Shown here one piece after another: positions 4,035 to 62,447 of a stretch of DNA of 64,000 bases. Numbering within the stretch: position 1 is the first letter of the stretch; each line of letters starts with the position of its first letter. This DNA is from Scilla litardierei (taxonomy: Eukaryota; Streptophyta; Magnoliopsida; Asparagales; Asparagaceae). The translations under genes were made by a program, and so were the position numbers. The notes beneath the pieces were generated by a model. That model was not told the origin of the DNA. It saw only the letters and a program-made list of their open reading frames with translations, and ran no database searches. The stretch covers positions 136,040,448 through 136,104,447 of the forward strand of contig CM061136.1 of the NCBI GenBank assembly GCA_030789695.1. Reading direction: 5' to 3'.

Positions 4035-4325
4035 TGTAACGACTGCTTTTCATGTATCTGGATTTAATATAATATAATATATGTTTTGGTGGATTTTCTC
4101 CTCTTGTGTGGTTTTCGTCTCCGTAGTTTTCATTTTCGATCGATTCGTCGTATTTTCTCGTTTCTTCCTTAGGATTGTCGATTTCGAAGTATGTCACTCG
4201 TGACGGGCTACATAACGGTCATATCTAACTATTAGATTAAGCCTAGGAGTCTTAGAAATCGATCCCGGGGCCCCGCGCTCCGTATCGGAACTTTTTGTGC
4301 TCATTAGCCGGTATAAGAAGGGGCA

Positions 4326-4724
4326 CCGACTGACTAGATGACGATCCAGTCGGTCGGCAATCCTTCTTGGACCGACTAGTTAGCTTTCTAAATTTCTCAG
4401 GAGTTACTGTTTATCGTTAGTCGGTCTAAGAACGTTGGTTGACCGACTAGGTTGCAAACTAGTCGGTCGGCAATGCTTCTTTAACCGACTAACACATCAT
4501 CTTAATTTTAGTTGAGTTACTGTTTACTCTTAGTCGGTCTAAGAACGTTCATCGACCGACTAGATGATAAACTAGTCGGTCAGTATTTGTTCATGGACCG
4601 ACTAACTCTAAATCCTATTTTCGTTCAGGAGTTACTGTTTGCACTTAGTCGGTCTGCGTTGGTCGACCGACCGACTAGTTGCCAAACTAGTCGGTCAGTG
4701 GTTGCTCTTTGACCGACTAACCAG
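4326..4724 (+). promoter_or_regulatory. DRE-like palindrome array in U3 of element A
   Basis: Four units, each with an inner palindrome (GACCGACTAG, 6-8 bp spacer, CTAGTCGGTC) flanked by outer half-sites TTAGTCGGTC and GACCGACTAA, separated by spacers with gagttactgttta. The first unit is partly decayed. Every half-site contains ACCGAC, the DRE/CRT core recognised by plant DREB factors. The array ends about 40 bp before the TATA-like box. A regulatory role is inferred. Confidence 0.75.
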
Positions 4725-9512: not shown

Positions 9513-9932
9513 TGTGATTCGGGTTCAATATTACATATTTAACCCCCCATTTAGCCCTATTTTGTGCTCATGTGATGCTATATTGTTCTCTAATACGCGC
9601 GTATTTTATATATCATCATTTATTAGAGAATTCACCTTGTTTGAGCATAAAACAGTAATTAATGGAGTATTTCTGCAATTTTTATATTTTTCCTAGCTTC
9701 GTCTCGATCTCACGATTCCAACGACTATTTATTTGTATTTTTCTGAGATCTGTGCTAATTTCTATGAATTTTTGAATGCAGAATACTATTTAATTGAAGA
9801 AATACGGAAGAAAATACGTTTAAATACGTATATACGGTCGGCGCACGGTTTTTGGTGACCACGTGGCAAGATCGCAAAAATTCCCGCTCAGATCGAGCGG
9901 CTATCAGCCATTGCAACGCGGCATACTTTCGA

Positions 9933-10476: not shown

Positions 10477-11097
10477 CGTATTCTAGGGTTTTGGGACGTA
10501 TTCTTGGCAAATCCTGGCGTATTTTGGGCGTATTGAAGGCTCTAAGAGCCGTATTTCGCCACCACAAAATTCTGTAAAATTTCAGAGGCTATTTTCTTAT
10601 TTCTAGAGAGTTTTGGTGTCTTTTCAAGGATATTTGGTGATAAATTTCTTAACTTAAACCTCGTATTTGGTGCTTTTCTATTGTATTTTGCTATTGGATT
10701 GATGTATTTTGCTATGAAACTTGTTTATTCTTGCACCATGAATAGCTAAATTGTTATTGTGCATGGTATGGCGTAGTTAGGGGATATGATTGTTGGATAT
10801 TGGACTCCCCGGATTTGGTTTTGGATGATGAACAAACATAAATATATCGTGAACTAACACTTTGTGAGCGCAGTTATGGAGATCGTCGCCAAATTCATAT
10901 GAATATCACTTACGACATCTCAAGACTTCTCAAAGCACGTGATCGTATGCCTAAAGCTTCGTTGAAGCTTATGGACCATTTTAGAAGTCATGAAGATTCG
11001 ATTGAAGCTATTGAAGACGGTATCGTCAAGTTTTATTTAAAGTCTTTAAGCTTCTTTCGTAGAATGTTAAGCCTTGAGTAGGTCTTACGGTTTAAAT

Positions 11098-11870
11098 CTT
11101 CATAACGCTCCTATCTTAGCTCTAGGATCTTAGTAGAAGTCCATACAATCTTTCCCGAAGCTTCGCGCTTCGATTCGCGACTTCTTGTGCATGTTAGTTG
11201 GTTCAAGAAGAAGAACTGACCGACTAGATGGTGATCTAGTCGGTCGGCAAAGCTTCTTGGACCGACTAGTTTTTGTCAGTCATTTCCAAGCTCTTTACTG
11301 TTTACAGTTAGTCGGTCTAAGTTGACTCTCCGACCGACTAGTTTGTGAACTAGTCGGTCAGTGATGCTTCTGTGACCGACTAGTTGAGCTTTCCCTGTAC
11401 ATGCACATTTGAGCCTGAGCTACTGTTTATCATTAGTCGGTCTGTGTTCATTGATCGACCGACTAGTTGATGAACTAGTCAGTCAACGTTCCTTCTTGGA
11501 CCGACTAGTTTAGCTTTACTGTTCATGCCAATTTTCACCTAATTTATTGTTTATCGTTAGTCGGTCTATGCTCATTTGGTGACCGACTAGTTGGTGAATT
11601 AGTCGGTCAACATTTGTTCTTGGACCGACTAAGTCAATTTATGCTCAGACTTCAGTTTTATCTGTTAGTCGGTCTCAGTTGAGTAACCGACCGACTAGTT
11701 GTGAAACTAGTCGGTCAGCTACTCTTCTTGGACCGACTAGTTCCTTTTGTCTATGCTTCAACCTTTTGGCTATTCTTCCATTAGTCGGTAAACGTTAATT
11801 GACCGACCGACTAGTTGATGAACTAGTCGGTCGATGGTTGTTCTTTGACCACCTAGTTGGGTTCAGAAAA
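11098..11870 (+). promoter_or_regulatory. Shared promoter module with six-palindrome DRE-like array, element C 5' LTR
   Basis: After a lead-in sequence (cttcataacg at 11098; ctttcccgaagcttcgcgct at about 11149) come six palindromes GACCGACTAG ... CTAGTCGGTC about 105-115 bp apart, each with outer half-sites TTAGTCGGTC and GACCGACTA. Spacers keep an actgttta motif before the next half-site. Each half-site holds ACCGAC. The same module, lead-in included, is in the Tekay-like LTRs. It ends about 55 bp before TATAAATA. Confidence 0.78.
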
Positions 11871-11922
11871 GAGCCGTTGGAGCATTAATTGAAACGTTTT
11901 TCTTTATCTCTCTCCTCTATCC

Positions 11923-11930
11923 TATAAATA
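11923..11930 (+). promoter_or_regulatory. TATA box of element C 5' LTR
   Basis: TATAAATA after the palindrome array and a ctctctcctctatcc pyrimidine stretch. It is repeated in the 3' LTR at about 32589. Confidence 0.7.
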
Positions 11931-12280
11931 CTTGATGGGCTGCATTCATTGCAGTCAAGGCTGATATTATTGCAAGTTTAGAGATCAAGAGAAATCATTC
12001 CAAGCTCATTCAAAGCTCTTTCATTCCATTCAATAATCTCTCCCCACTCTTACTTCCAAAGAGAGATTCATTGATTGTGAAGCCTTCCAAGCCAAGTGCT
12101 TGATCCTAGGTCACCATCATTCCCATAGCTCTCCATCGCTGATCTACGTCTTGGAGCTAGAGTTTGGTGCCTCTTCTTCTTCCTCAAAATCATCTTTGCC
12201 CTAATTCGTAAGTATTACTCAAGGCATAGGTATTTTGTCGGTAAGAAGTTTTGTTTCATTTCAATTCATATTGTAAGTTT

Positions 12281-12435
12281 CACTCTCGGTTGTGAGAGTG
12301 TGGTTGTGATCCCGGGTTGTGGGAGTCACAAATTATTTTGTGTATGATTTGACTTGTGAAGGTTTTTCACAAGTATTTCATAGTGGAAATCTTGAGTTAG
12401 GGTTTCTAACTCAAGTATCCGGAGGAGATCCGGGT
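12281..12435 (+). promoter_or_regulatory. Comb of five strong hairpins in element C leader
   Basis: Consecutive stem-loops: CACTCTC/GAGAGTG (12281-12300), TTGTGA/TCACAA with inner ccc/ggg (12304-12332), ACTTGTGAA/TTCACAAGT (12352-12374), CTTGAGTTAG/CTAACTCAAG (12391-12415) and a ccgga/tccgg pair (12417-12435). Most loops are ggtt or ggttt. The 3' LTR copy keeps all five (32941-33100). This accounts for the apparent ORF here. Confidence 0.6.
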
Positions 12436-12608
12436 GGTTGGGACGTAGGATCACCGGGAACATGTCGGGGAGACTTGGGTGGATCCGAACCCAGTAATAT
12501 CGTTGTTTGCGATTGTTTCTTTGTTGTCTAACATTTACATTTCCGCATTTTTCGCATTGTTTGGTAGAGTTTGCAAGTAATTAGGAATTAGCCTCTTAAT
12601 TATTTTAA

Positions 12609-12935: not shown

Positions 12936-13000
12936 TTATTTTAAAGTACTATTCACCCCCCCTCTAGTACTTGTGCAGTAGCTTAGCAGGGCATTACATT

Positions 13001-13013
13001 TGGTATCAGAGCC
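13001..13013 (+). promoter_or_regulatory. Primer binding site of element C (initiator tRNA-Met)
   Basis: TGGTATCAGAGCC two bases after the LTR end (12998): the standard initiator-Met primer site of plant copia elements. Confidence 0.95.
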
Positions 13014-13025
13014 AAGTCTATAGCT

Positions 13026-15275
13026 ATGTCTGCCAACGACAACAAGACCGTTCGTCCACCTTCCGACTATAGCACCTTCAAGAACCGTGAGGGAGCGTCT
13101 TCGGTAATGGAAGGACATTCCTCAACGAGGCCTCCATTCTTCAACGGTACCAACTACGGGTACTGGAAATGCCGGATGGAGACTTTCCTCCGGAGTGCTT
13201 CACTATGGAGGACCACGATGAAGGAATACGTCGAGCCCACCGAAGAAGATTTTGAGAAATGGACTCCCGCGGAGGTCGCCGCGGAGGTGAGCAATGCCAA
13301 GGCAATGAACACCTTGCAATGCGCTTTGGAGCCCGAGGATTTCAACAAGATATGCACATGTAAGAGTGCATATCAAATATGGAACTCCCTCCTCATATTA
13401 CATGAAGGGACGAGTAGGGTAAGAGACTCCAAACTCGTTGTAGTTAATCAAGATTACGAGATGTTTCATATGCTACAGGGTGAGAAGATGAAGGAGTATT
13501 ATGCTCGCTTTGTCGACATCATAAACGAGTTAGAGGCTCTCGGCAAATCCTACACCCAAAAGGAGAAATGTTCGAAGCTTATCGAAGGACTTCCTTCGAG
13601 TTGGGAAAAGCGTACCTTCGCCATCGAGGAAGGTAATGATATGAACAAATATACCGTTGTTCAACTAATGGGTACCTTGATGTCTTATGAGGTACGCAAG
13701 GATAGCAAGTTGAAGTTGCAGGAAAAGATGAAGTCTTACCTACAACAAGAAGAGCCAAAGAAGAAAGCTATTGCTTTCAAGGCCGCTCCATCTACTTCCA
13801 CATCAACCGATGATGAGAACTCGGAAAACGAGTTGGACTTGGAGTCCATGGCACTCATGGCCAAGAAGTTCAACCGGTTCTTCCGGAAAGGTAACTTCAA
13901 AAACAAATCGAAGTTCAATTCATCTAACTCCTCTTCTTCTTCTTTGTGCTTTAAATGCAACAAGCCAGGACACATGAAAGCGGAGTGTCCTCTAAACAAG
14001 CAAAAGGAGAAGTGGAAGGCGCCAAAGTTCGACAAGTCCAAGAAGTACAAGAAAGGGAACAAAAAGGGGCTTGTCGGGGCAACATTCACCAACTCCGAGG
14101 ATTCCTCAAGCGGAGAGTCGGATGATGAGCAAGTGGAGCAAGCACACATGTGCTTCATGGCAAGAGAGGAGCATGATCAAGGATCTTCCTCTTCCGATGA
14201 TAGCGACAACGAAGGCGATGAGGTAACTATGGATGACCTTAGGAATGCTAATTCTCAATTATGGTCTAAGTATACTAAATTAGTAAATAGGTATACTAAA
14301 GTAAAAGATGACTTAGCTAGCATTCAAACCTCGCCTAAAACTATCATCACCAACAACGACACCGTTGTTGAAGGGTTGAAGAATGAGATTGTTAATATCA
14401 AGACTCAACTTGAACATGTTAGCATTGAAGATCCGGAGGAACACAAGATAGCGGATTTGACTTCTCAAAACTCGACTTTGAGTATTGAGAATGAGAGTCT
14501 TAAATCTCGTGTTTATGTGCTCACATCGCAAGTATCCAATTTGGATACTTCTATGCGTTCTCTCACCGAGAAATATGAGAACACATTAGGCCGAATTAAT
14601 AAATTCAATAAGGGTAAGGACCATTTGGATAAAATCCTAAGTGACTTACTTCCGGCCAATCACCACATTGGCTTGGGGTATACGATGGGAAGTTCATCCA
14701 AATCGGCCACTACTTTTGTTAGGCCAATTTCCGGTGACTCAATGAGTGGTAGCAAACACTCTATTGGTAGTTCTTCTACCAATGGTGCTTCCACCTCGTC
14801 CACACCCTCTTTCAGAAAGAAACCCACTTTGGGTGGACCTCCAAAGAATGGGCATGCTTATATGTACACCAATACTATGCCACGTAGGAACACACGTCCT
14901 ACTCCACCGGCTCACACATATGATGATTTCTATGCTACACGTTCACGGGCACGTGCACACCATGTGAGACACCCTCACGCACGTGTTCCTCCACATGCAT
15001 ATGTTCACCCACATCATCGTATGAATAACTATCCACATGCACCATTCCATCATGTTCCTTATGCCTATCCACGACATGCATCACGTAGAAACCAACAACG
15101 CATGCATGCACCCAATAGGATGAGGGCTCCCAAGATTTTCACTATTTGGAGCCCAAAGGACACAAGCATGGATGAAAAACAAGTTTACATGAATGCTTAT
15201 TTTTCGGATGTTGTGCATAGTAGAAATTATGTGGGGAAGTCTAAGTCCAATTGGACTTGGCTTCCAAAGGTCTAA
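13026..15275 (+). CDS. gag: Element C Gag, 749 aa, Sirevirus type
   Basis: Structural protein that forms particles and binds element RNA. The ATG at 13026 is the first after the primer site and the frame is intact. The N-terminal part (about residues 25-250) is a copia-type gag domain (FNGTNYGYWKCRM near residue 38). One CCHC knuckle, CFKCNKPGHMKAEC, lies near residue 307, followed by a Lys-rich basic stretch, an acidic Ser-rich stretch and predicted coiled coil (about 400-530). The C-terminus has a striking His-rich tract (about residues 640-690). Long C-terminal extensions of Gag are typical of Sireviruses. The frame ends just before the protease frame; a 59-bp GT-AG interval (15270-15328) would join them in frame. 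Confidence 0.9.
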   Translation: MSANDNKTVRPPSDYSTFKNREGASSVMEGHSSTRPPFFNGTNYGYWKCRMETFLRSASLWRTTMKEYVEPTEEDFEKWTPAEVAAEVSNAKAMNTLQCALEPEDFNKICTCKSAYQIWNSLLILHEGTSRVRDSKLVVVNQDYEMFHMLQGEKMKEYYARFVDIINELEALGKSYTQKEKCSKLIEGLPSSWEKRTFAIEEGNDMNKYTVVQLMGTLMSYEVRKDSKLKLQEKMKSYLQQEEPKKKAIAFKAAPSTSTSTDDENSENELDLESMALMAKKFNRFFRKGNFKNKSKFNSSNSSSSSLCFKCNKPGHMKAECPLNKQKEKWKAPKFDKSKKYKKGNKKGLVGATFTNSEDSSSGESDDEQVEQAHMCFMAREEHDQGSSSSDDSDNEGDEVTMDDLRNANSQLWSKYTKLVNRYTKVKDDLASIQTSPKTIITNNDTVVEGLKNEIVNIKTQLEHVSIEDPEEHKIADLTSQNSTLSIENESLKSRVYVLTSQVSNLDTSMRSLTEKYENTLGRINKFNKGKDHLDKILSDLLPANHHIGLGYTMGSSSKSATTFVRPISGDSMSGSKHSIGSSSTNGASTSSTPSFRKKPTLGGPPKNGHAYMYTNTMPRRNTRPTPPAHTYDDFYATRSRARAHHVRHPHARVPPHAYVHPHHRMNNYPHAPFHHVPYAYPRHASRRNQQRMHAPNRMRAPKIFTIWSPKDTSMDEKQVYMNAYFSDVVHSRNYVGKSKSNWTWLPKV

Positions 15276-15328: not shown

Positions 15329-18300
15329 GTACTCAAGGAAAAGAAAAAGAAAAGGAGCAACAAATTTAAATTTAGCTCCAAGGGGAATTGGATACTCGAT
15401 AGCGGGTGTTCAAAACACATGACGGGTGACTCTCAATTGCTCTCCGGAGTGGTTCCCATTGCAAATGGAAACCGCGTCGTATTTGGAGGCAACGAGAGCG
15501 GAACCATCATAGGTGTTGGTAAAGTGGGTAATCCTTCTAAACCCCTTATATGTGATGTTTACCTTGTTAAAGGATTAAACCACAATCTCATTTCAATAAG
15601 TCAACTTTGTGACAAAGATTACAAAGTTAACTTTGCGAAAGGAATGTGCCATATTTTAAGAAAAGATAATAATGAATTATTGTTTTCCGGCACATGCCAT
15701 AAGGATATATATATCTTAGATCTTCCAAGATCACATGAACAATGTCTTATTGCCAACACAAGTGAACAACACTTATGGCATCGACGTTTTGGTCATGTGA
15801 ACTTTGGAACACTTTTAAGCTTTCCAAGTTAAATTCTATTAGAGGCTTCCCTAAGCTTGTCTTTCAAAAGAAAAGCTTTTGTGACTCGTGTCAACGAGGC
15901 AAGCTTCCAAAATCTTCATTTAAACCTAAGAAAAGCATTTCTTCTAAGCGGCCTCTAGAGCTATTACATCTAGATTTATTTGGGCCAACTAGAGTTGCTT
16001 CATTAGGTAATGATAGATATGGACTTGTCATCGTTGATGACTTTTCTAGGTTTACTTGGGTATTTTCATTGTGTAATAAAAATGAAGCTTTTGAAAACTT
16101 CACAATTTTTGTTAAGAAAGTACAAAATCTCTTAGGAACCACCATTGCCACTATTCGTAGTGATCATGGAGGTGAATTTGAGAATGAGTCTTTTGAGACA
16201 TTTTGTGATGAAGTTGGTATTACACACACCTTTTCATTCCCTCGCGCACCTCCTCAAAATGGTGTTGTTGAGAGAAAGAATATGACGCTACTGGAATGTG
16301 CTCGCACTATGCTTGATGATAGCCAACTTGGCCATCAATTTTGGGCGGAAGCGGTACATACCGCTTGCTATGTGTTTAATAGAATACTTTTGAGGCCCGG
16401 CAATAAACAAACTTGTTATGAATTGTTGTTTGGTAGGTTGTCTCAAGTTAAACATTTTCGTGTTTTTGGTTCGAAATGTTTTATTAAGAACACGTATGGT
16501 AGTTTGGACAAATTCGATCCAAGATCCGATGAGGGGATTTTTGTTGGATATTCTTCGCGTAGCAAAGCCTACCGGATATTCAACAAACGAACCTCAACGA
16601 TCGAGGAATCGCTTCATGTGTCATTTAATGAAGGATTTGTTCCAACTAGAATTACTAATGATGATGACTCTATGGATGTCTTATGTGATTCAATTGGTAA
16701 TTCTAACTCTAATGATTCTATTGATTCTATTGAGACTAACCCGTCTAATGAAGTTGTTGAGAATGTTCCTAGTGATCAAGGTATTCCCAAACGGCTTCAT
16801 ACCGTTCGTGACCATCCTCATGAGCAAGTCATCGGCAATATCCATGATAGTGTCAAGACGAGATCGCAAGTGAACTACTTCGCTCATTGTGCCTTTGCCT
16901 CCTCGATAGAGCCAAAGAATGTTAATGAAGCTTGCGAAGATAGCACTTGGATCTTAGCCATGGATGAGGAACTCATTCAATTCGAGAGGAATGAAGTTTG
17001 GGAGCTTGTTCCATTGCCATGGAAGAACCACACCGTCATAGGGACAAAGTGGATCTTCAAGAACAAAACCGACGAAAACCAAGTCGTCGTCCGGAACAAA
17101 GCTCGGTTAGTTGCTCAAGGCTACCGTCAAGAGGAAGGTATTGATTTCGAAGAATCCTTCGCTCCGGTAGCTAGATTAGAATCAATTAGAGTATTATTGT
17201 CTTTTGCATGCCATAAGGATTTTAAATTATTTCAAATGGATGTTAAAAGTGCATTTTTAAACGGAGATGTTGTTGAGGAAGTTTACGTTTCTCAACCTCC
17301 GGGCTTTATTAATGAAAAATTTCCAAATCATGTTTTTAAACTAAAGAAAGCGCTTTATGTTTTGAGACAAGCTCCTCGAGCTTGGTATGATCGCCTAAAG
17401 AATTTTCTTTTGGATTTGAATTTTAAAATGGGAGAAGCCGATTCTACACTTTTTGTTAAGCATTCGAATAATGATATAATTTTAGTTCAAATATATGTTG
17501 ATGATATCATTTTCGGTGCTACTAACTTTGCTCTTTGCGAAGAGTTTTCTAATGTGATGAAGGATCAATTTGAGATGAGCCACATGGGTGAGCTCAAATA
17601 TTTCTTAGGTCTCCAAATTCGCCAAATGGACGATGCAATCTTCATCCACCAAAAGAAGTACACGGTGGAGTTGCTAAAGCGATTTGGAATGGAGAATGCC
17701 TCCGGGAAAAAGACTCCAATGAGCACGACTACGCATCTTGATAAGGATACGGGCGGTAAGGATGTAGACATTCGTCTATATCGAGGTATGATAGGTAGTT
17801 TACTTTATCTTACCGCAAGTAGGCCCGATATTATGTTTGCCGTATGCGTATGTGCTCGTTATCAGTCTCAACCTAAGGAGTCTCACTTAGTAGCGGTAAA
17901 ACATATTTTCCGTTATCTAAGTTATACACTTGATTTTGGATTACTTTATCCAAAATCTAGCACGTATGAGTTAATCTCATATAGTGATGCCGATTATGTG
18001 GGATGCAAATCCGACAGGAAAAGTACCAGTGGCACTTGCCATTTTATAGAAATTCCCTTGTCTCTTGGTTTTCCAAGAAGCAAAATTCCGTATCACTTTC
18101 AACCACCGAGGCGGAATACATTGCCGCCGGTGCCGCGTGTGCTCAAGTTCTTTGGATGAGACACACACTTAAAGACTTTGGTATAAACTGTGATACTTGC
18201 CCTATCATGGTGGACAACCAAAGTGCAATATGTCTTTCCAAGAACCCAGTACACCATTCCCGTTCGAAACACATAGATGTCCGACACCATTTCTTAGATG

Positions 18301-18692: not shown

Positions 18693-18883
18693 TTAGTCGG
18701 TCCAAGTTCATTGGCCGACCGACTAGATTCAGTTCTAGTCGGTCAGCAAATGAGCTTAGACCGACTAAATCTTGTCAGGAAATTTGCCTTCAGTTACTGT
18801 TTACAACTATTCGGTTCAAGCTCATTGACCGACCGACTAGATCGTGATCTAGTCGGTCAGTGCTTGAACTGTGACCGACTAGT
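18693..18883 (+). promoter_or_regulatory. Internal two-unit DRE-like palindrome array upstream of the extra ORF, element C
   Basis: Two units of the LTR-type palindrome: GACCGACTAGATTCAGTT.. with CTAGTCGGTC, and GACCGACTAGATCGTGAT.. with CTAGTCGGTC, with outer half-sites and the actgttta spacer. An isolated ttagtcggtct follows near 18956, then a C/T-rich stretch (18960-19083) like a plant 5' UTR, ending ctcctcctag. This looks like a second, internal promoter for the ORF at 19219. Confidence 0.55.
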
Positions 18884-19218
18884 TGTGACGGGGACTGAAT
18901 CGTCTTTTCGACTTCCGATCGATTAAAACCCCATCTATCCGACTTCTTCCATTTTTAGTCGGTCTCTCTCTCACTCCAACTCAAAAATCCCTCCGACCTT
19001 TCGACTTCCCTCCTCCCTCTCCGTCGTGCCCGGCCATTTTCCAACCATCCCCGCCGTCGCCGACCGTCGCCCTCTCCTCCTAGGTGATCTCTCCTCCCTC
19101 TCCTAGTTCTAGGGTTCAGTTTTCAGCTCTAGGGTTAGGGTTTCTTGTTATTTCGATTTCTAGGGTTTCGTTTTTAGGTTCTTCGATTCGATCTCTTGCG
19201 TCGTGTCGTGCCTCGATT

Positions 19219-20297
19219 ATGGCTCGTACACGTATCCCGATCACTCCCTCTGGCCCTTCGCCCATGACCGTCGATTCGCCACCCTCGGACCCTCCTCCTC
19301 CGAAACGTCGTTCGAAGCCTTACGAACCCTCTTCGTCTTCGCCTCCTCTTAAGCGTAAGAGGACGACAAAAGCGAAGCCCCGTGCTCAACCTAGAGACCA
19401 ACCCAAGCCTAAGCCCAAGCCCAAGCAACTTGCGTCTCCCTCTTCTTTCCATACTCCTACCGATTCCGATACCGAGTATAGACCCGAGCCTGAGACTCAT
19501 AGGGAACCCACTACTCCTACCCATCCTGAGTCTAGCTCCCGACCTCGTACGTCTACCCGTAAGCCTAAGGGAAAGGCTCCGATGCCGGTAGGCGGTGTCA
19601 ATATCTCGTTGTGTCGCGACGACCCTTTGTGTCTCGCGGCTTACAACCGTATCGAACATTGCCCACTGCTTCTGGAGCATTTCGTCCAGTATAGTGACTT
19701 CCTAGGCCTCGACGATCTTCTTTTGTCCTCCGGTCTACTCGATTACCTTCGATATGACCCGAAGGCGAACCCTCACCCCTACCCTCGCCTAGTAAAACTT
19801 TTCTATGCCAATAGGATCCGGGGTCAGTACGATGGGACCCACTCTGTTGAGACGACTGTTTTGGGGACTCCTATAGTCCTCACATCAGAAATCTTAGGAG
19901 AGATTTTGGGTATCTCCTCGTCTGGCCTCCTCCCCTCTGACATTTCTGTTGATGATATCACCTCCCTTGATCAGGTCGTCCTATCCAAGATTTTCCACCA
20001 GATTCCTCCCGCCATGATTGGCGTGCCCTCCAAATCCTTCAAGCCTAATGCATGGGTCTTGAATTTGATTCTGAAGTCGTGCTTGCTTCCCAAGTACGGC
20101 TCCTCATCTCTACCGTCCCAGCCCTTCTTGAAGTTGATCTATGCTATTTTCATGGGGAGCTCGATTAACTGGGCTCGCATTATACTCGATAAGATGGACA
20201 CTTTCGAGTGTATTCGCAAGTCCACGAAGTCGGCTCATATCCCCTTCCCGTGCTTGTTGACTCTGGTATTCCGTCACTTCCGTGTCACATTGCCTCC
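19219..20297 (+). pseudogene. Element C extra 3' ORF, N-terminal part (interrupted by D)
   Basis: Starts MARTRIPI at 19219, the first ATG of the long frame. The first 140 residues are Pro/Ser/Arg/Lys-rich and low complexity; then comes a globular region (about residues 135-355) rich in Leu and Tyr that resembles the putative plant transposon protein domain (PF20167 type) seen in retroelement-associated plant ORFs. I see no convincing signal peptide or transmembrane segment, so calling it an envelope is not supported. Element D is inserted at 20297 (TSD cctcc 20293-20297 and 29924-29928). Joining across one TSD copy restores the frame exactly, continuing at 29929. The combined ORF would be 541 codons plus stop with no other lesion seen. 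Function unknown. Confidence 0.72.
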
Positions 20298-20639
20298 TGT
20301 CACGACCCGCTTCTCTAAAATGGAGGCGAGACGTGAAAAGGTCCGCACGAGAGTGGAGCTGTGAAGCCCCAAACCCGATAAGCGTCCAAAATACATAAGC
20401 AGGTCCCTGTAACCACAACGGAATAACAATAATAACACAAGGAGAGACTGAAATAAAATTTACATCTCATAAATTGTCCAACATCAACATAAGTCCAACA
20501 TCCAGAAAAGCCACCAGGCTAAAAGAAAAGAGTCCAAGGCCCAGAACAAAGCCAACAAAAGCGACGACATAACAAAGTATAGGTGCTACGCACCGATAAC
20601 AAAACAACTCTCTAACAAAAGTAAAACACAACGAAGACA

Positions 20640-20747: not shown

Positions 20748-22011
20748 GTGTCACCCAAAAGAGTAAAGGGGCACATGTCAGCAAGTCTAAAAAGACTTGG
20801 GCAAGGAAACTGAAGGTAAGGCAACTAGCAACCTAGCAGTTTAGTATGCATGACATGGCAGTTATAACATGAGTGCACAATTAAAACATGGCAAGACAAT
20901 TTGTACAAGGGAACAATTTATCGGGACAAGACAAGAGTAGCCAAACTACTATCAATTCAATCAATTCACATTTTGTAGGTGTTTACGCCCTTCGCTGAAT
21001 GGTATAACATTTCAGACCGATCGGCACTAAACACTACCCAATACCCACACGATATGGAGCCTGGGGTCCCCGCACATGGAACTCAGCTAGTGAGCCTGGG
21101 GTTGCCCCGCACATTGAGCTCGCATTCTTAGTTCACAATTCAATACATTTCGAGCATTGGGGTTAGCAACTCATTATGCTCGCTTCTGGTCACGAGCCAG
21201 GAACACAAGTATCGTAGCAAAGCTACGCAATCACAGCAATACCTAAAGAATGCGAGGTCATGACAATTTATTTGCGTACCGTTAATTAAATTAAACGTGA
21301 CAGGCGAAATGCAATGACATGAACATATTCGCGTACCGTTAATTGAAAGTAAACATGACATGGAAATTGTGCAACATGCTAAATGTCGGAACTAGCTTCG
21401 TTGTCAAGCTAGTTCCCCAATTTGCACCTAGGCGAGTATCATTTCGTCGCCTAGCCTCTTTTACGCCTACAACAAGCAAATGGCCTAAAACATGGCCTAA
21501 ACCCTAAGTGGCAAGTTTCACTTGCCTAGCACCGGGGATGACGACCACTTCGTTACACGGGTACCAATCTACGGGGAAATCGCTGTTTTGGGGGAACAAT
21601 CAACAAACAACATGAATTTTATTAGGGTTTCATAAAAATACCAATATGCTATAAAAACAACGGTAGATCGATTTCTTACCGAGAAGAGACGGAAGGAACT
21701 CTCCGGGGAACCCTAGGTTCAGATCTGGAGAAGATTGGAGAAGTTTGGGAGAATTAGGGTTTTGGTGGATTTGGGGATTTTGATGGGTTTTGGTGAGATT
21801 TTAGGGAAGATGAGAGGTAGATGGAGTGAATGGATGGTTTGGATGATGGATTTGAGGCTTGGAATGAAGAAATAAAGCTTGGAGGAAGATGGGGGCTCAA
21901 GGGGGAAGATTTTAGGGTTTTGGGTCGTGTTGGAGAAGATGAAATCGTTTGGGTTGGGTATAAATAGGTTGGGCTGGCGGCTGCCCAGAAATTAGGGTTT
22001 CAACACTGGTT

Positions 22012-22430
22012 AGTCGGTCAAAGAGCAACCACTGACCGACTAGTTTGGCAACTAGTCGGTCGGTCGACCAACGTAGACCGACTAAGTGCAAACAGTAACT
22101 CCTGAACGAAAATAGGATTCTAGAGTTAGTCGGTCCATGAACAAATACTGACCGACTAGTTTGGCATCTAGTCGGTCGATGAACGTTCTTAGACCGACTA
22201 AGAGTAAACAGTAACTCAACTAAAATTAAGATGATGTGTTAGTCGGTTAAAGAAGCATTGCTGACCGACTAGTTTGCAACCTAGTCGGTCAACCAACGTT
22301 CTTAGACCGACTAACGATAAACAGTAACTCCTGAGAAATTTAGAAAGCTAACTAGTCGGTCCAAGAAGGATTGCCGACCGACTGGATCGTCATCTAGTCG
22401 GTCGGTGGCCCTTCTTACACCGGCTAATGA
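22012..22430 (-). promoter_or_regulatory. DRE-like palindrome array, element D 3' LTR
   Basis: Four palindromes of GACCGACTAG/CTAGTCGGTC with outer half-sites and the agtaactc (reverse of gagttact) spacer, ending near the TATA-like ctatttatac on the minus strand (about 21960). Confidence 0.75.
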
Positions 22431-22742
22431 GCACCAAAAGTTCTGATACGGAGCGCGGAGCCCCGGGATCGATTCCTAAGACTCCTAGGCTTGATCTAAT
22501 AGTAAGATACGACCGTTATGAAGTCCGTCACGAGTGACATACTTCGAAATCGACAATCCTAAGGAAGAAACGAGAAAATACGACGAATCGATCGAAAATG
22601 AAATCTACGGAGACGAAAACCACACAAGAGGAGAAAATCCACCAAAACATATATTATATTATATTAAATCCAGATACATGAAAAGCAGTCGTTACATCCT
22701 CCCCAACTTAAGAAAAATTCCGTCCTCGGAATTTCCAAATAC

Positions 22743-28681: not shown

Positions 28682-29237
28682 CCTCTTTTACGCCTACAAC
28701 AAGCAAATGGCCTAAAACATGGCCTAAACCCTAAGTGGCAAGTTTCACTTGCCTAGCACCGGGGATGACGACCACTTCGTCACACGGGTACCAATCTACG
28801 GGGAAATCGCTGTTTTGGGAGAACAATCAACAAACAAAGTGAATTTTATTAGGGTTTCATAAAAATACCAATATGCTATAAAAACAACGGTAGATCGATT
28901 TCTTACCGAGAGGAGACGGAAGGAACTCTCCGGGGAACCCTAGGTTCAGATCTGGAGAAGATTGGAGAAGTTTGGGAGAATTAGGGTTTTGGGGGATTTG
29001 GGGATTTTGATGGGTTTTGGTGAGATTTTAGGGAAGATGAGAGGTAGATGGAGTGAATGGATGGTTTGGATGATGGATTTGAGGCTTGGAATGAAGAAAT
29101 GAAGCTTGGAGGAAGATGGGGGCTCAAGGGGGAAGATTTTAGGGTTTTGGGTCGTGTTGGAGAAGATGAAATCGTTTGGGTTGGGTATAAATAGGTTGGG
29201 CTGGCGACTGCCCAGAAATTAGGGTTTCAACACTGGT

Positions 29238-29656
29238 TAGTCGGTCAAAGAGCAACCACTGACCGACTAGTTTGGCAACTAGTCGGTCGGTCGACCAACG
29301 CAGACCAACTAAGTGCAAACAGTAACTCCTGAACGAAAATAGGATTCTAGAGTTAGTCGGTCCATGAACAAATACTGACCGACTAGTTTGGCATCTAGTC
29401 GGTCGATGAACGTTCTTAGACCGACAAAGAGTAAACAGTAACTCAACTAAAATTAAGATGATGTGTTAGTCGGTTAAAGAAGCATTGCTGACCGACTAGT
29501 TTGCAACCTAGTCGGTCAACCAACGTTCTTAGACCGACTAACGATAAACAGTAACTCCTGAGAAATTTAGAAAGCTAACTAGTCGGTCCAAGAAGGATTG
29601 CCGACCGACTGGATCGTCATCTAGTCGGTCGGTGGCCCTTCTTACACCGGCTAATG
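29238..29656 (-). promoter_or_regulatory. DRE-like palindrome array, element D 5' LTR
   Basis: Four-unit array like 22012-22430. Being in the 5' LTR, it is the one positioned to drive the element. Two half-sites carry single substitutions (agaccaact, agaccgacaaa). Confidence 0.75.
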
Positions 29657-29928
29657 AGCACCAAAAGTTCCGATACGGAGCGCGGGGCCCCGGGATCGAT
29701 TCCTAAGACTCCTAGGCTTGATCTAATAGTAAGATACGACCGTTATGAAGTCCGTCACGAGTGACATACTTCGAAATCGACAATCCTAAGGAAGAAACGA
29801 GAAAATACGACGAATCGATCGAAAATGAAATCTACGGAGACGAAAACCACACAAGAGGAGAAAATCCACCAAAACATATATTATATTATATTAAATCCAG
29901 ATACATGAAAAGTAGTCGTTACACCTCC

Positions 29929-31454: not shown

Positions 31455-31760
31455 TGTTGGATATTGGACTCCCCGGATTTGGTTTTGGATGATGAACAAA
31501 CATAAATATATCGTGAACTAACACTTTGTGAGCGCAGTTATGGAGATCGTCGCCAAATTCATATGAATATCAATTACGACGTCTCAAGACTTCTCAAAGC
31601 ACGTGATCGTATGCCTAAAGCTTCGTTGAAGCTTATGGACCATTTTAGAAGTCATGAAGATTCGATTGAAGCTATTGAAAACGGTATCGTCAAGTTTTAT
31701 TTATAGTCTTTAAGCTTCTTTCGTAGAATGTTAAGCCTTGAGTAGGTCTTACGGTTTAAA

Positions 31761-32520
31761 TCTTCATAACGCTCCTATCTTAGCTCTAGGATCTTAGTAG
31801 AAGTCCATACAATCTTTCCCGAAGCTTCGCGCTTCGATTCGCGACTTCTTGTGCATGTTAGTTGGTTCAAGAAGAAGAACTGACCGACTAGATGGTGATC
31901 TAGTCGGTCGGCAAAGCTTCTTGGACCGACTAGTTTTTGTCAGTCATTTCCAAGCTCTTTACTGTTTACAGTTAGTCGGTCTAAGTTGACTCTCCGACCG
32001 ACTAGTTTGTGAACTAGTCGGTCAGTGATGCTTCTGTGACCGACTAGTTTAGCTTTCCCTGTACATGCACATTTGAGCCTGAGCTACTGTTTATCATTAG
32101 TCGGTCTGTGTTCATTGATCGACCGACTAGTTGATGAACTAGTCGGTCAACGTTCCTTCTTGGACCGACTAGTTTAGCTTTACTGTTCATGCCAATTTTC
32201 ACCTAACTTACTGTTTATCGTTAGTCGGTCTATGCTCATTTGGTGACCGACTAGTTGGTGAATTAGTCGGTCAACATTTGTTCTTGGACCGACTAAGTCA
32301 ATTTGTGCTCAGACTTCAGTTTTATCTGTTAGTCGGTCTCAGTTGAGTAACCGACCGACTAGTTGTGAAACTAGTCGGTCAGCTACTCTTCTTGGACCGA
32401 CTAGTTCCTTTTGTCTGTGCTTCAACCTTTTGGCTGTTCTTCCATTAGTCGGTATATGTTAATTGACCGACCGACTAGTTGATGAACTAGTCGGTCGGTG
32501 GTTGTTCTTTGACCGACTAG
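31761..32520 (+). promoter_or_regulatory. Shared promoter module with DRE-like array, element C 3' LTR
   Basis: Same lead-in and six palindromes as 11098-11870, here less decayed (for example ctagtcggtcaacg where the 5' LTR has ctagtcagtcaacg). Confidence 0.78.
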
Positions 32521-32940
32521 TTGGTTTCAGAAAAGAGCCGTTGGAGCATTAATTGAAACGTTTTTCTTTCTCTCTCTCCTCTATCCTATAAATACTTGAT
32601 GGGCTGCATTCATTACAGTCAAGGCTGATATTATTGCAAGTTTAGAGATCAAGAGAAATCATTCCAAGCTCATTCAAAGCTCTTTCATTCCATTCAATAA
32701 TCTCTCCCCACTCTTACTTCCAAAGAGAGATTCATTGATTGTGAAGCCTTCCAAGACAAGTGCTTGATCCTAGGTCACCATCATCCCCATAGCTCTCCAT
32801 CGCTGATCTACATCTTGGAGCTAGGGTTTGGTGCCTCTTCTTCTTCCTCAAAATCATCTTTGCCCTAATTCGTAAGTATTACTCAAGGCATAGATATTTT
32901 GTCGGTAAGAAGTTTTGTTTCATTTCAATTCATATTGTAA

Positions 32941-33100
32941 GTTTCACTCTCGGTTGTGAGAGTGTGGTTGTGATCCCGGGTTGTGGGAGTCACAAATTAC
33001 TTTGTGTATGATTTGACTTGTGAAGGTTTTTCACAAGTATTTCATAGTGGAAATCTTGAGTTAGGGTTTCTAACTCAAGTATCCGGAGGGGATCCGGGTG
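32941..33100 (+). promoter_or_regulatory. Hairpin comb, element C 3' LTR
   Basis: Same five stem-loops as 12281-12435, with stems unchanged apart from one base in the last. Confidence 0.6.
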
Positions 33101-33332
33101 GTTGGGACGTAGGATCACCGGGAACAAGTCGGGGAGACTTAGGTGGATCCGAACCCAGTAATATCGTTGTTTGCGATTGTTTCTTTGTTGTCTAACATTT
33201 ACATTTTCGCATTTTCCGCATTGTTTGGTAGAGTTTGCAAGTAATTAGGAATTAGCCTCTTAATTATTTTAAAGTACTATTCACCCCCCCATCTAGTACT
33301 TATGCAGTAGCTTAGTAGGGCATTACAATGAT

Positions 33333-36729: not shown

Positions 36730-37039
36730 GTGTTAGGAAATTCCGAGGGCGGAATTTTTCTTAAGGTGGGTAGGATGTAACGACTGGTTGTGTCTATGTA
36801 TTGTCTATTATATAAATATTATGGTTGTTCTCTTCCTTGTGAGTTTTCCCTGTTGGACGTTCTCTTTCAGTTCTTTCTGATCTTCTACTTTCCGTTGCAT
36901 ATCATGATGGGCTTGGAGTAAGTATTTTTACGATGAGCTTCATAGCGTCCATATCTTAGAGCTAGGTTGATCTTAGAAGCCATAGGAATCTTTCCCGAAG
37001 CTTCGCGCTTCAATTCGAGACTTTTCATGACTCTTAGTT

Positions 37040-37562
37040 GGTTCAAGAAGGAGAACCAACCGACTAGATTGCAATCTAGTCGGTCGGTAACTCTTCAGGA
37101 ACCGACTAGTTCATCTTGATTATTTCAGCTGAGTTACTGTTTCCACTTAGTCGGGCTAAGCACATCCATCGACCGACTAGTTGTGAAACTAGTCGGTTAG
37201 AACTTGTTCTCAGACCGACTAATTCAGAGTTCTTTCTGTCAGCCGAGTTACTGTTTACAGTTAGTCGGTCAAAGAACGACTATCGACCGACTAGTTGAGA
37301 AACTAGTCTGTTAGAGTTTCTTCTCAGACTGACTAACTCTCAGTACTTATTGTCTATCATATTCAACCCTTAGTCGGTCAATGAACATTCACCGACCAAC
37401 TTATTCTCAAACTAGTCGGTTGACGAGCCTTCACAGACCGACTAAATCTGTCTACCATGTATTGACCCTGTTCTCAGTTTGCCTTTTAGTCGGTCACAGT
37501 TGGACGACCGATCGACTAGTTCCCAAACTAATCGGTCGACCACTCTTCACTGACCGACTAAT
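37040..37562 (+). promoter_or_regulatory. DRE-like palindrome array, element E LTR
   Basis: Five palindromes, several half-sites decayed (gaccaactt, ctagtctgtt, gatcgactag). The lead-in at 36937-37011 shares ctttcccgaagcttcgcgct with copia element C. TATTTAAA follows at 37609-37616. Confidence 0.75.
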
Positions 37563-50724: not shown

Positions 50725-53556
50725 GAGATCGTGCGCTTGCATGGAGTCCCTGTAAGCATTATATCAGATCGTGATATACGATTCACATCCCAGTTCTGGA
50801 AAAGTCTACAGACCAATCTGGGTACCATTCTGAAATTCAGTACTGCGTATCACCCGCAGACGGATGGACAGTCAGAGCGTACCATACAGATCTTGGAGGA
50901 TATGTTGAGAGCCTGTATGTTGGATCTCAAGGGTTCATGGGAGGATCATTTGCACCTGGTGGAGTTTTCCTACAACAACAGCTATCAGGCGAGCATTGGC
51001 ATGGCGCCTTTTGCTGCTCTCTACGGGAGGAAGTGTCGATCGCCACTAAGTTGGGATGACGTAGGTGATAGAGAGCTCTTGGGGCCACAGTTGATAGTGG
51101 AAGCAGTTGATGTTGTTCGAGATATTAGAGATAAGATTCGGATTGCCCAGGACCGTTATAAACATTGGGCAGATGCTAAACGGCGTCCTCTGGAGTTTCA
51201 GTCGGGCGATCATGTGTTTCTGAAGATTTCACCAAATCGAGGAGTGATTCGATTTGGGAAGAGAGGCAAGCTTAGTCCGAGATATATTGGACCATTCGAT
51301 GTGCTACAGCGAGTTGGTGAAGTAGCATATCGCTTAGCTTTGCCACCGTCCTTGGAGGGAGTTCATGACGTCTTTCATGTATCCTAGCTCCGTCGTTATA
51401 TCAGCGACCCTTCTCATGTTGTGGACTACTCAGAGATTACAGTTCGACCAGATCTGACGTACAAACACCAACCAGTTGAGATCATAGATCGACGTCAGAA
51501 AGTCTTCAGGAACAGCACTATTGATCTAGTCAGAGTGATGTGACGTCGTGACTCGCCAGGAGAGTCCACCTGGGAGCGGGAAGATGAGATACGAGAGCCT
51601 TATCCATATTTGTTTTCTGCTCCTTAGTTGATGAGAATTCCGAGGACGGAATTTTTTCTAAGGTGGATAGAATGTAACGGCCAGTATTTTTAGACGTGTT
51701 TTCAATTTTCCGTACCGGTATTTTTCTTCCGTCATCGGGTTAACTTTTCGTCCGTACGAGTTGACGCGAGCGCGTCACTATTTTTGTTTTACCGTGTCGT
51801 CATTATTTACCATCAAGTTTAACTAAAATAATTTAATTTAATTACCCTGCTAATACGATTTACTAATTACAACTAAATTGTTTTACTAATTACCCTAATT
51901 CAATTATTTTACTATTCACGATTAATTTTACTAATCACTTTAATTAACTGACTAATTAAAATTTGTCGAACGTGTGACATTGACTAAGTACTTACTGTCG
52001 TTTGTTATGTCAAACCAACCCATGAAGGCAGATGCATCCTCCCTTAAAAACAAAAGAGGAGATTAGTCAGCAATGTGATTCATCCTCATTTTAAATCAAC
52101 ACACACGTTTTTTCGTTTAAACAAAACCGCACGTCTCTTCTTCCCCGTTAGTCTACAGATTTCATTAAACATCCATCATAATCATATTAATATGGGTTTG
52201 ACGAATGATAAAGTGTGTCCCCCATGTTCATCCTATTAAGCCATAAGCCAGACGTCTCCTCCACTGAAACCCATTCTGCAAACCCATTCACCCAAATCTT
52301 CATCAGCCTAAACAAACCCAATCAACCAATCCCCAAAATTGAATCAAGAAAACAGAGAACTTCAGATATGAAGTTTTGGGACACAGATTCAAACACACAA
52401 CAATCAGATCTAAAATTAAGATTTGAGATTCAAAATACCCAAACAAACCCAAAAGTCTGAAAGAAATTTCAAATTCTTCAAACACATCCCTCTTCCCTAC
52501 AAAGCAAACCCCTTCTTCCTCATCTTCTTCCTCCTTCCTCCTCCCATATGCCCCGCCGTCGGAACACCTGAGGAGCCGCCGGCCTGTAGCCGCCCCAACC
52601 GCCGGACCGACTGTCAGAGAGCCCCTGACCGCTGGCGCCCCTCCTCTCCTCGTCGCGCGGAGGTAAGCTCCCTTCCCTTTTCGTTTTTACGTGAGAAGCC
52701 CTCCCATTTCGTTGGTTGCCTGCAAGCTTTCAAAACAAAAAAAAGAAAAAAAAAGAACTGAGAACAGACGAGAGACAGAAGGAGAAAGACAGAGAGAAAG
52801 AGAGAGTATTAGAAAGACTTAGCCTATAAAAGAAAGAGATGGGAATTGAATGAATAAAGAAAAGGCATTCATGTGACAACATGGGAATGTATTAATGTGT
52901 AGAGAGAGAGTGGTACATGTTGTTTCAAAACGAATAATTATATGTTAGAAAGCCCTGCATTAGTGATATAATAAAAAAATGAATAGGGTCAGAGAGAATC
53001 AGTAAGTGAGTAATAGAATATAGGAGGTTGGAGCCTTGTTTTAATAAGTATGAAAGGGTGGCCGGTTGCAAAGAAAGAGGGAGAAAGAGACTATAGTAAT
53101 ATGATTATAACATGTTACCCCCTTGGTAAGAGTTAGTAGGTAAGAAATATAACTTGTTATCCTATTACCCATAGTCAACGATTAATGTATGTTAAGCCAT
53201 GAAACTGGATCAGTGAATTAATTAGATTAATTAATTCGTTAATTGTTAATGTTAGTTAGAGGTATTAATTTGAATGTTAATTTGATTTCACCATGTTACT
53301 AATTTCTAAAACAATGTTAGATTGATGAATATTAAATGAATGAGGCGTATCTTGTTAGTGTAACACAATATAGTCATCACCCTAGCCAGAGAGCCCAATA
53401 AAATTAGACAAACCCAATTTAGGGATTAAATCGGTAATTTGATTATCTCACAATAAATCTAATTCGGTAATTTCTTTAACCAAAACAGAGAACCGGAAGT
53501 ACCGACACGTAGTACCTGTTCAGACAAACCCACGACAACCAATACCACCGGAAACA

Positions 53557-53680
53557 GGCAAGTGATACTTGCCAGTAATTATTTAGGCCAATTTGTGTAG
53601 TCGCCTAAAAGAGACTAGGCGATGAAATGATAGTCGCCTAGACGTCCTTGCTAGATCTAGCTTGACAACGAAGCTAGATC
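53557..53680 (+). promoter_or_regulatory. Covarying leader hairpins, element G
   Basis: 53557-53573 GGCAAGT(gat)ACTTGCC; 53615-53641 CTAGGCGA/TCGCCTAG around tgaaatgatag; 53654-53680 GATCTAGCTT/AAGCTAGATC around GACAACG. Kept although flanking sequence is strongly diverged from A, D, E and F. Confidence 0.72.
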
Positions 53681-54240
53681 CGACACCTTTACCATGCTAT
53701 CTTTTCATGATGTCGTGTCATGTTTACTTTCAATTAACTGTACGCACTTTTAACTGCTCATTACATGTCATGTCATGCATCAAATTGTTCTATTGTGATT
53801 GTGTAGCACACGCTACAATAATTGTAACTATTGAGGCTAGGCACCTGCTTTGCGGGCACAACCCTATGCCAATAACACTTCATGGCTCGTGATCCAGAAG
53901 ATAGGCGCCAGTCCATATACACGTGGAGGGGTAGGGTTAAACGATCGCTTGAGCATAGAAGTGAGCCCGTACAGCCACTTCAGCCAAAAGACGGAAACTC
54001 TGTGCACAAAGTGATAAATCAGTGATTCGTGAATCGTGAAATAGTGAATTGTAGCTTTCTGCTACACCGTGCTTGATTATTATTATCTTGTTCATTTAAT
54101 TGTTGCACTCTTTTAATGTCATGCCATATCATCATGTTAGAACTGCTAGTTGCATTATTTTATTTGTATCCTTGCACAAAAGTCCTCCGCCCTCTTAGGA
54201 GACTTTTGCTGACATGTGTCCTTTTCTCTTTGGGTGTCAC

Positions 54241-54450
54241 ATGTCAGGCTTTGAGACAGAGCAGGTAGCAGAGGACGAGCAGTTCGTGGACGATGAGTTT
54301 GAGGTCTTTGCAGAGACCGAGTTCGAGGACACTGGTGACCAGTCCTACACTCATTTGGAGTCTCCCCTTAGTTGTTACTTTTCCTTAGTCGCTGTTAGGT
54401 TTTGGTGCGTAGCACCTATCTCTTTCAGTTTTATTTCGGCCATGCTTTAG
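54241..54450 (+). CDS. LTR-encoded acidic ORF, element G (stop lost, extended)
   Basis: From the ATG at 54241, codons 1-35 follow the pattern of A, E and F (14 acidic, no basic residues, ending FEDTGDQS). Codon 36 is TAC (54346-54348) where the others have TAG, so the frame runs on to 54450. An in-frame upstream ATG at 54214 also exists. The hairpin arms acatgtg/cacatgt enclose both starts. Confidence 0.5.
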   Translation: MSGFETEQVAEDEQFVDDEFEVFAETEFEDTGDQSYTHLESPLSCYFSLVAVRFWCVAPISFSFISAML

Positions 54451-54794
54451 GCTTATTGTTCAGACTTTTACTTTTGTGACTATTCTGTGATGTTGGAATA
54501 ATTGTTGGATGTTTTGTGTAACGACTGGTTTTCATGTATCTGGATTTATTATATTATAATATATGTTTTGGTGGATTTTCTTCTCATGTGTGGTTTTCGT
54601 CTCCGTAACTTTCATTTTCGATCGTTCCGTCGTGTTTTCTCGTTTCTTCCTTAGGATCGTCGATTTCGGAGTAAGTCATTCGTGACAGGCTTCATAACGG
54701 TCGTATCTTACTGTTAGATCAAGCCTAGGAGTCTTAGGAATCGATCCCGGAGCTCCGCGCTCCGTATCGGAACTTTTGGTGCACGTTAGCCGGT

Positions 54795-55202
54795 ATGAGA
54801 AGGGGCACCGACCGACTAGATGACGATCCAGTCGGTCGGCAATCCTTCTTGGACCGACTAGTTGGCTTTCTAAATTATTCAGAAGTTACTGTTTATCTTT
54901 AGTCGGTCTAAGAACGTTGGTTGGCCGACTAGGTTGCAAACTAGTCGATCAGCAATGCTTCTTTAACCGACTAACTCTTCAACTTAATTTTAGTATCAAA
55001 ACTGTTCACTCTTAGTCGGTCTAAGAACGTTCATCGACCGACTAGATGTTAAACTAGTCGGTCAGTATTTGTTCATGGACCGACTAAATCTAAATCCTAT
55101 TTTCGTTCAGAAGTTACTGTTTACACTTAGTCGGTCTGCGTTGGTCGACCGACCGACTAGTTGCCAAACTAGTCGGTCAGTGGTTGCTCTTTGACCGACT
55201 AA
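54795..55202 (+). promoter_or_regulatory. DRE-like palindrome array, element F 5' LTR
   Basis: Four units; the last has a doubled GACCGACCGACTAG. The array ends about 45 bp before TATTTATA at 55246. Same arrangement as A, D and E. Confidence 0.75.
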
Positions 55203-61714: not shown

Positions 61715-62039
61715 GTGTTTGGAAATTCCGAGGACGGAATTTTTCTTAAGTTGGGGAGGATGTAACGACTGGTTTTCATGTATCTGGATTTATTATATTA
61801 TAATATATGTTTTGGTGGATTTTCTTCTCATGTGTGGTTTTCGTCTCCGTAACTTTCATTTTCGATCGTTCCGTCGTGTTTTCTCGTTTCTTCCTTAGGA
61901 TCGTCGATTTCGGAGTAAGTCATTCGTGACGGGCTTCATAACGGTCGTATCTTACTGTTAGATCAAGCCTAGGAGTCTTAGGAATCGATCCCGGAGCTCC
62001 GCGCTCCGTATCGGAACTTTTGGTGCACGTTAGCCGGTA

Positions 62040-62447
62040 TGAGAAGGGGCACCGACCGACTAGATGACGATCCAGTCGGTCGGCAATCCTTCTTGGACCG
62101 ACTAGTTGGCTTTCTAAATTATTCAGAAGTTACTGTTTATCGTTAGTCGGTCTAAGAACGTTGGTTGACCGACTAGGTTGCAAACTAGTCGATCAGCAAT
62201 GCTTCTTTAACCGACTAACTCTTCAACTTAATTTTAGTATCAATACTATTCACTCTTAGTCGGTCTAAGAACGTTCATCGACCGACTAGATGTTAAACTA
62301 GTCGGTCAGTATTTGTTCATGGACGGACTAAATCTAAATCCTATTTTCGTTCAGAAGTTACTGTTTACACTTAGTCGGTCTGCGTTGGTCGACCGACCGA
62401 CTAGTTGCCAAACTAGTCGGTCAGTGGTTGCTCTTTGACCGACTAAT
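62040..62447 (+). promoter_or_regulatory. DRE-like palindrome array, element F 3' LTR
   Basis: As 54795-55202; one half-site is altered (ggacggacta at about 62322). Confidence 0.75.

Follow-up and report, generated by a model that had tools for sequence, protein, structure and literature searches.

A palindrome-array block shared upstream of the TATA box by Sirevirus-like Ty1/copia and Tekay-like Ty3/gypsy LTRs of Scilla litardierei

The LTRs of a Sirevirus-like Ty1/copia element and of several Tekay-like Ty3/gypsy elements of Scilla litardierei carry a homologous block of about 510-760 bp, in which a lead-in of about 120 bp is followed by palindromes in the same order and at the same spacing. 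This block was analysed in a window of 64,000 nucleotides (the whole stretch, on contig CM061136.1) and in a sample of loci from the genome, whose labels begin with L. Its homology, the limits of that homology, its distribution in the sample and its conserved spacing are direct observations. Taken as a whole, it is probable that the block is a homologous upstream element that passed from Sirevirus-like to Tekay-like elements and serves as an upstream activating sequence with multiple sites for a DNA-binding protein. No report of a cis-acting block common to copia and gypsy LTRs was found in the literature searched, most of which was open-access.

Half-sites of the form GACCGACTAG, with at most one mismatch, number 133 in the window, where 2.34 would be expected, and 0 of 100 shuffles reached as many. 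They form nine clusters, namely eight LTR modules and one array inside copia element C (Table 1). Lead-in and array are present at every one of the eight LTRs, which bears out the preliminary description in giving C and the Tekay-like elements A, D, E and F the same layout, and its remark that element G lacks the array also holds, as no half-site cluster or module match occurs over the 2.84-kb LTR of G. The G+C content of the module is just 43-47%. The lead-in ends in TTAGTTGGTT or TTAGCCGGTN, followed by a 14-bp gap, and this terminal word has the look of a degenerate half-site that keeps the phase of the array. The identity noted earlier between C and E at the lead-in hairpin is real, but extends over 25 bases around GAAGCTTCGCGCTTC rather than 20, and the hairpin is shared with reservations: A and the minus-strand element have a stem that does not pair fully (GGGGC/GCTCC), and in F it reads GGAGC/GCTCC. 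In the columns around GAAGCTTCGCGCTTC, one stem pair is changed on both sides when C and E (GAAGC/GCTTC) are compared with F, and the stem is weakened or broken in other families. Of 21 Tekay-type LTRs, 16 have a TATA-like box 42-46 bp 3' of their last half-site, the search pattern having matched none in the other five; in copia LTRs the distance is 53-66 bp. The distance first given was 40-55 bp.

Table 1. Positions in the window of the modules, of the parts of copia element C and of the LTR without module
Feature	Position	Strand	Remark
Lead-in, copia C 5' LTR	11098..11217	+
Palindrome array, copia C 5' LTR	11218..11856	+
TATA-like box CTATAAATA, copia C 5' LTR	11922..11930	+	65 bp 3' of last half-site
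Module, copia C 3' LTR	31762..32520	+
Module, Tekay-like A LTR	4208..4720	+
Module, one LTR of the minus-strand Tekay-like element within C	22010..22523	-	lead-in at 22523
Module, other LTR of minus-strand Tekay-like element	29237..29750	-	lead-in at 29750
Module, Tekay-like E LTR	36938..37561	+
Module, F 5' LTR	54690..55202	+
Module, F 3' LTR	61934..62446	+
Second half-site array inside C	18693..18964	+	5' of env-position ORF
Copia C 5' LTR	10791..12608	+	extent of the match to the 3' LTR (98.3%)
Copia C 3' LTR	31455..33327	+	end taken at GGGCATTACA
C gag ORF	12987..15275	+	stop to stop; Retrotran_gag_2 and zf-CCHC
C pol ORF	15766..18159	+	stop to stop; integrase 5' of RVT_2, the Ty1/copia order
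C env-position ORF	19084..20364	+	Pfam Transposase_32; continues into the minus-strand Tekay-like insertion starting near 20296
Tekay-like G LTR stretch without module (control)	51673..54516	+

The class of the elements was read from domain order and sequence marks. The pol of C has the Pfam domains rve (61-162) and RVT_2 (409-653) in a single ORF, which is the Ty1/copia order, and its gag likewise places it in Ty1/copia. Upstream of its 3' LTR stand repeats of AGGGGGAG, which we take to be the Sirevirus PPT octamer, at 31130, 31213 and 31373, with a terminal AGGAGGAG at 31445; locus L018 has four AGGGGGAG, the terminal one included. Runs of C near the LTR end, corresponding to a C-rich integrase signal, are present in C, L017, L027 and L028, and TTGGTATCRGAGC lies 3' of the LTR in L017 (of the C family) and L027. 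C also has palindromic repeats both in the LTR and 5' of an ORF that is env by position alone. The attachment site in C and L018 is AA/TG, and not the AT/TG given for 20 Sirevirus elements (PMC2829016); for this reason C is named Sirevirus-like rather than Sirevirus. L027/L031 and L030 make up a second copia group, whose gags share 61-68% identity with the gag of C. At window positions 12606-12938, where the 5' LTR of C stops matching its 3' LTR, there is a fold-back of about 330 bp that is 89% self-complementary.

Elements A, E and F and the minus-strand element that lies within C (20296-29928, probably the D of the preliminary description) all have a Ty3/gypsy reverse transcriptase (RVT_1). 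The ORF of F contains SH3_Tf2-1 and a C-terminal match to Chromo at 23.6 bits, slightly under the 25.1-bit cut-off, and the other three match the F protein at 89-97% in tblastn pieces. This combination of reverse transcriptase and C-terminal chromodomain characterises chromoviruses of the Tekay lineage, which is the same as Del, and suggests that the four are Tekay-like. L011 and L012 have LTR ends of the type of the Tekay-like elements, with no coding match between them. Two further features of the window were observed: a 647-bp stretch at 33328-33974 and 6615-7259 (97.5% identical), one copy of which lies exactly between the C 3' LTR and the truncated E, and another minus-strand copia element whose LTRs (40375-41744 and 47374-48741; 93.5% identical) have a doubled GCGCCACGTGGCGCGC palindrome and no module.

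The lead-in aligns almost without gaps across 30 LTR copies, eight short loci (L001-L008) having been left out because they lie inside L009-L011. Over the 116 bp without the half-site, matches numbered 90 for C and E (z 18.0), 77 for C and F (13.7), 66 for C and L020 (10.2), 81 for C and L011 (15.2), 84 for L027 and E (15.3) and 71 for L027 and F (12.3), where 2000 dinucleotide shuffles per pair gave means of 36-38 and maxima of 48-52. In the 110-bp flanks on each side of the block, three copia-Tekay pairs reached z of only -0.4 to 2.4, against 7.2 and 4.7 in copia-copia pairs and 2.5-4.0 in two Tekay-type pairs; the upstream flank barely discriminates, since E and the minus-strand element give 2.5 there and C and E 2.4. 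When the C LTR was compared by BLAST with those of E, F, the minus-strand element, L011 and L013, the best nine matches of each comparison lay inside the module, and the match with the LTR of copia L027 spans nearly the whole LTR. The alignment proposed in the preliminary description finds homology well past the 10-bp palindrome, so that the outcome named there as refuting the exchange, homology confined to that palindrome, did not arise.

The block ends 3' at the last half-site, after which the Tekay-like LTRs of the window have their own sequence; the TATA box and the LTR downstream of it are family-specific and outside the shared part. Because the TATA region is not common to both, what moved is the upstream array and not a whole promoter. 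The earlier proposal that the superfamilies had exchanged or captured a promoter is accordingly upheld as to exchange, by the gapless lead-in, the unit order and spacing and the unrelated flanks, and narrowed as to what was exchanged, an upstream block. These comparisons of sequence support an exchange between the Ty1/copia and Ty3/gypsy superfamilies. Separate gathering of sites for one host factor by the two superfamilies would account for half-sites being constrained in copia and Tekay alike, but such convergence is highly improbable given a near-gapless lead-in of 120 bp, shared unit order and spacing and position-specific spacers, and it was set aside on the lead-in and unit order.

Successive palindromes are spaced 113/115/109/116 in copia L027 and 114/115/109/116 in copia L030, and 113/114/109/116 in E and 114/115/109/116 in L013 among the Tekay-type elements; relative to these four, C has one unit more, and F and the minus-strand element have one fewer. 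In 12 of the 30 modules, loop and spacer agreement between the first copia and the first Tekay-type units is 0.69-0.76, compared with 0.43-0.46 between first and non-first units. Copia-to-Tekay identity is 0.94-0.96 in the half-sites and 0.50-0.56 in loop and spacers. Among facing half-site pairs of the 30 modules (at most 2 mismatches per half-site), 134 have an 8-nt gap and none a gap of 5-7 or 9-31 nt, with 17 at 4 nt or less and 110 at 32-49 nt. Separators measure 14 nt in 231 of 260 cases, and 26 of the 29 odd ones are 10 nt; the 17 short-gap pairs and the 29 odd separators may be overlapping weak matches. Of 93 distinct palindromes, 92 have loop positions 2 and 7 paired and 72 have positions 1 and 8 paired, and the true arm is therefore about 12 bp, GACCGACTAGWT, giving a paired half-site unit with 12-bp arms and a 4-bp centre. 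As a separate observation, Tekay-type arrays are mosaics of near-identical units across families (unit 3 of L015 and L016; units 3 and 5 of L011): L015 and L011 share 95% identity in unit 3, and between L011 and F the last units are 96% and the first units 85% identical.

Across the 3.68-Gb genome (3.684 Gb in 7266 contigs as counted), the exact pair GACCGACTAG-N8-CTAGTCGGTC occurs at 238,470 places and its reversed control at none. Exact pairs with other loops number 265 at 0-7 nt and 215 at 9-30 nt, so that the loop is 8 nt in 99.8% of those with loops up to 30 nt. A 24-mer of the copia lead-in is present at 15,959 places. In the genome sample the carriers of the block are copia elements of two or three families and Tekay-like elements of several. 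A free-standing mobile module was considered and rejected: in tiles L009-L028, a biased sample picked for listed palindromes, none of 24 clusters of at least two sites is solitary, 22 being modules with a lead-in and two being arrays 5' of env-position matches in copies of C. Locus L029 contains a small cluster of three half-sites before a pol remnant (2183-2225), which fits neither category, and also a tandem array (8434-9661) with units about 76% alike and GATCGACCGTAAG-like words.

The array of paired half-sites, which ends 42-66 bp before the TATA box belonging to the family in question, would act as a multi-site upstream activating sequence, whose half-sites a DNA-binding protein would read at fixed spacing. 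This is the most likely function as judged from sequence, and we infer a DNA-binding reader because the spacing is fixed, sequence rather than pairing is conserved and the array stands upstream of the TATA box. A factor of the AP2/ERF-DREB type is one candidate reader. The half-site includes the DRE core ACCGACTA, the core sequence of DREB-responsive promoters, and resembles the DRE/CRT element of DREB factors in that its ACCGAC-T-A fits ACCGACNA/G/C, described as the site of the DREB2A regulon (PMC3146422). Binding at ACCGACTA is predicted from this resemblance to the DREB2A site; unlike DRE/CRT, the conserved stretch GACCGACTAGWT is palindromic and longer than the core.

Palindromes might instead work as hairpins in the genomic RNA, as small-RNA template or in packaging or regulation, functions discussed for maize Sireviruses, to whose palindromes small RNAs map according to the account consulted (PMC10760457). 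With folding windows of 110 nt covering the whole LTR, module plus rest, energies below -40 kcal/mol were obtained in 37 of 171 windows of C, 35 of 157 of L027, 28 of 230 of the minus-strand Tekay element, 23 of 234 of F and 20 of 247 of L011, and in 0 of 276 of G. However, E reaches this level in just 9 of 273 windows, and in E and L013 it is sequence outside the module that folds most strongly. Nor would hairpin formation require an exact 8-nt loop, and half-sites also face each other over 32-49 nt. In the 93 distinct palindromes, excluding those with more than 3 changes per arm or more than 4 in total, 53 arm changes were counted and 0 were compensated on the other arm. An RNA-level function is therefore unlikely, and a DNA-binding protein is favoured, because half-sites and the 8-nt loop length are kept and none of the arm changes is matched opposite.

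The reader of the array could, by analogy with the anti-silencing protein VANC of VANDAL elements, be encoded by the elements themselves, as an activator or anti-silencing protein made by the Sirevirus-like element, whose target array the Tekay-like elements took over. VANC target motifs are described as repeated and fast-diversifying (PMC12844716), and palindromes differ among the element families of this one genome; that other copia families have other palindromes would be odd if one host factor were the target. The first half of the C env-position ORF has basic Lys/Arg-rich stretches (KRRSKP/LKRKR), which would suit such a protein. Against this, Pfam at E <= 0.001 yields Transposase_32 alone in this ORF and no DNA-binding domain, and none of 5521 protein candidates is a relative at the same threshold. 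The idea is unlikely; if it were true, the Tekay-like elements would be cis-parasites, gypsy riding on a copia control system.

Other palindrome arrays exist in this genome. A third LTR type (L010 8753-10000 and L032 3827-5076) has its own array of CACTCGGCCGAGTG upstream of a TATA-like box; this word occurs at 130,572 exact places genome-wide, against 1 for its backwards control. The 270-aa ORF of this type has no Pfam match, and the type, which is unclassified, is possibly non-autonomous. Two further copia LTRs from which the module is absent (L012 3373-5150 and L016 5620-7305, minus strand) contain the palindromes TTAGTCGACTAA and GGTAGTCGACTACC, placed 5' of TATAAATA; TAGTCG is a short core common to these palindromes and the half-site of the module.

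The block crossed from one superfamily to the other one or more times and has since diverged along with each family; as to direction, we infer Sirevirus to Tekay to be the most likely. C has arrays at both Sirevirus-typical places, before the TATA box and before the env-position ORF, the units of the internal array being diverged from those of the LTR (73-81% over 52 bp for the eight nearest). The block is absent from G and also from L010b, over the approximately 735 bp of its LTR visible before another insertion. That Del LTRs of five eudicots had no CpG island (PMC4029996) is a weak point for the same direction, given the G+C content of the module. In an integrase/chromodomain tree rooted on L010b, G falls outside 11 module-bearing rows (87/93), which favours the preliminary proposal of acquisition within the gypsy lineage, though not firmly: in the reverse transcriptase tree, drawn on a very distant outgroup, G groups with L026, L014 and L019 (93/97), inside module-bearing rows. 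As drawn, this tree would mean block loss in G; the two trees agree if the reverse transcriptase root is placed on G.

An origin in a Tekay-like or unsampled element, from which copia acquired the block, is less probable but a possibility of some weight. The module trees, being unrooted, carry no direction. With midpoint rooting the root falls among Tekay rows and copia inside gypsy, and the gypsy side also has the longest module stem (L013/L014/L019/L020, 0.34-0.35). The place of G in the reverse transcriptase tree as drawn agrees with such an origin, and the third LTR type means that arrays are not confined to Sireviruses in this genome. It is the lack of the block in G and L010b, both outside the module-bearing rows of the chromodomain tree, together with the second, diverged array of C at a Sirevirus-typical place, that speaks against it. 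The route of the transfer may have been template switching between co-packaged RNAs or, alternatively, nested insertion with illegitimate recombination, both of which are discussed for recombinant centromeric elements (PMC4079200); nested copia and gypsy insertions are present within this window.

A single exchange would suffice for the module trees, which are also compatible with more than one. Copia forms one side of a branch in the lead-in tree of 30 rows (96/94); with six rows added it does not do so in the best tree, but copia as one side is not rejected (p-AU 0.383). With unit 1 included (236 columns), copia is one side with 30 rows (95/97), and with 36 rows the 15 copia rows are one side (99/97) with E nearest (85/96). 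A clade of the C family and E gave p-AU of 0.0415 with 30 rows and 0.30 with 36. Twelve LTR pairs are 97.1-99.0% identical, equivalent to 0.4-1.1 My at an assumed rate of 1.3e-8 per site and year, and the copies are therefore young; the exchange is older than they are, because the lead-ins of the families have diverged (C and E are 78.5% identical).

A close known parallel is the repeated motif (RM) of Sireviruses, arrays of repeated palindromes upstream of the TATA box and before env (Bousios 2010, PMC2829016). As described there, RM are palindromic, contain CCG/CGG, occur in many copies upstream of TATA with extra copies before the env-like gene, and begin 200-400 bp into the LTR, in all of which they resemble the module, itself a palindrome with a CCG/CGG core present in many copies upstream of TATA. 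Unlike them, the module has a strict 8-nt loop and occurs in a Ty3/gypsy lineage too, and the 13 consensus motifs in Table 3 of that work do not include GACCGACTAGWT-N4-AWCTAGTCGGTC. The same work reports that classic Ty1/copia elements lack RM. In grasses, centromeric CR elements likewise exchanged part of the LTR and amplified the recombinants, but those exchanges, as presented, took place between CR variants or subfamilies, some horizontally acquired (PMC4079200), whereas here they join copia and gypsy and involve the upstream block only. The maize Sirevirus palindrome CACCGGACNNNGTCCGGTG, also present in Helitrons, is another case of a Sirevirus palindrome in a different transposon class; it is described as motif sharing, with Ty3 elements generally lacking the structure peak (PMC10760457), whereas the present case is block homology with order and lead-in. 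The 5' CpG islands of grass Del LTRs are similarly a variable block in the 5' part of the LTR (PMC4029996), a comparison weakened by the low G+C of the module; the word palindrome does not appear in that text, which describes the Del LTRs of five eudicots as without a CpG island.

The natural graft of this array into an unrelated superfamily argues for a role in transcription or escape from silencing over a copia-specific step. Tekay-like elements with and without the block provide paired material for a direct test of the role of the array. The exchange also shows that cis-control can be traded between LTR superfamilies, so that the regulation of LTRs need not track the pol tree.
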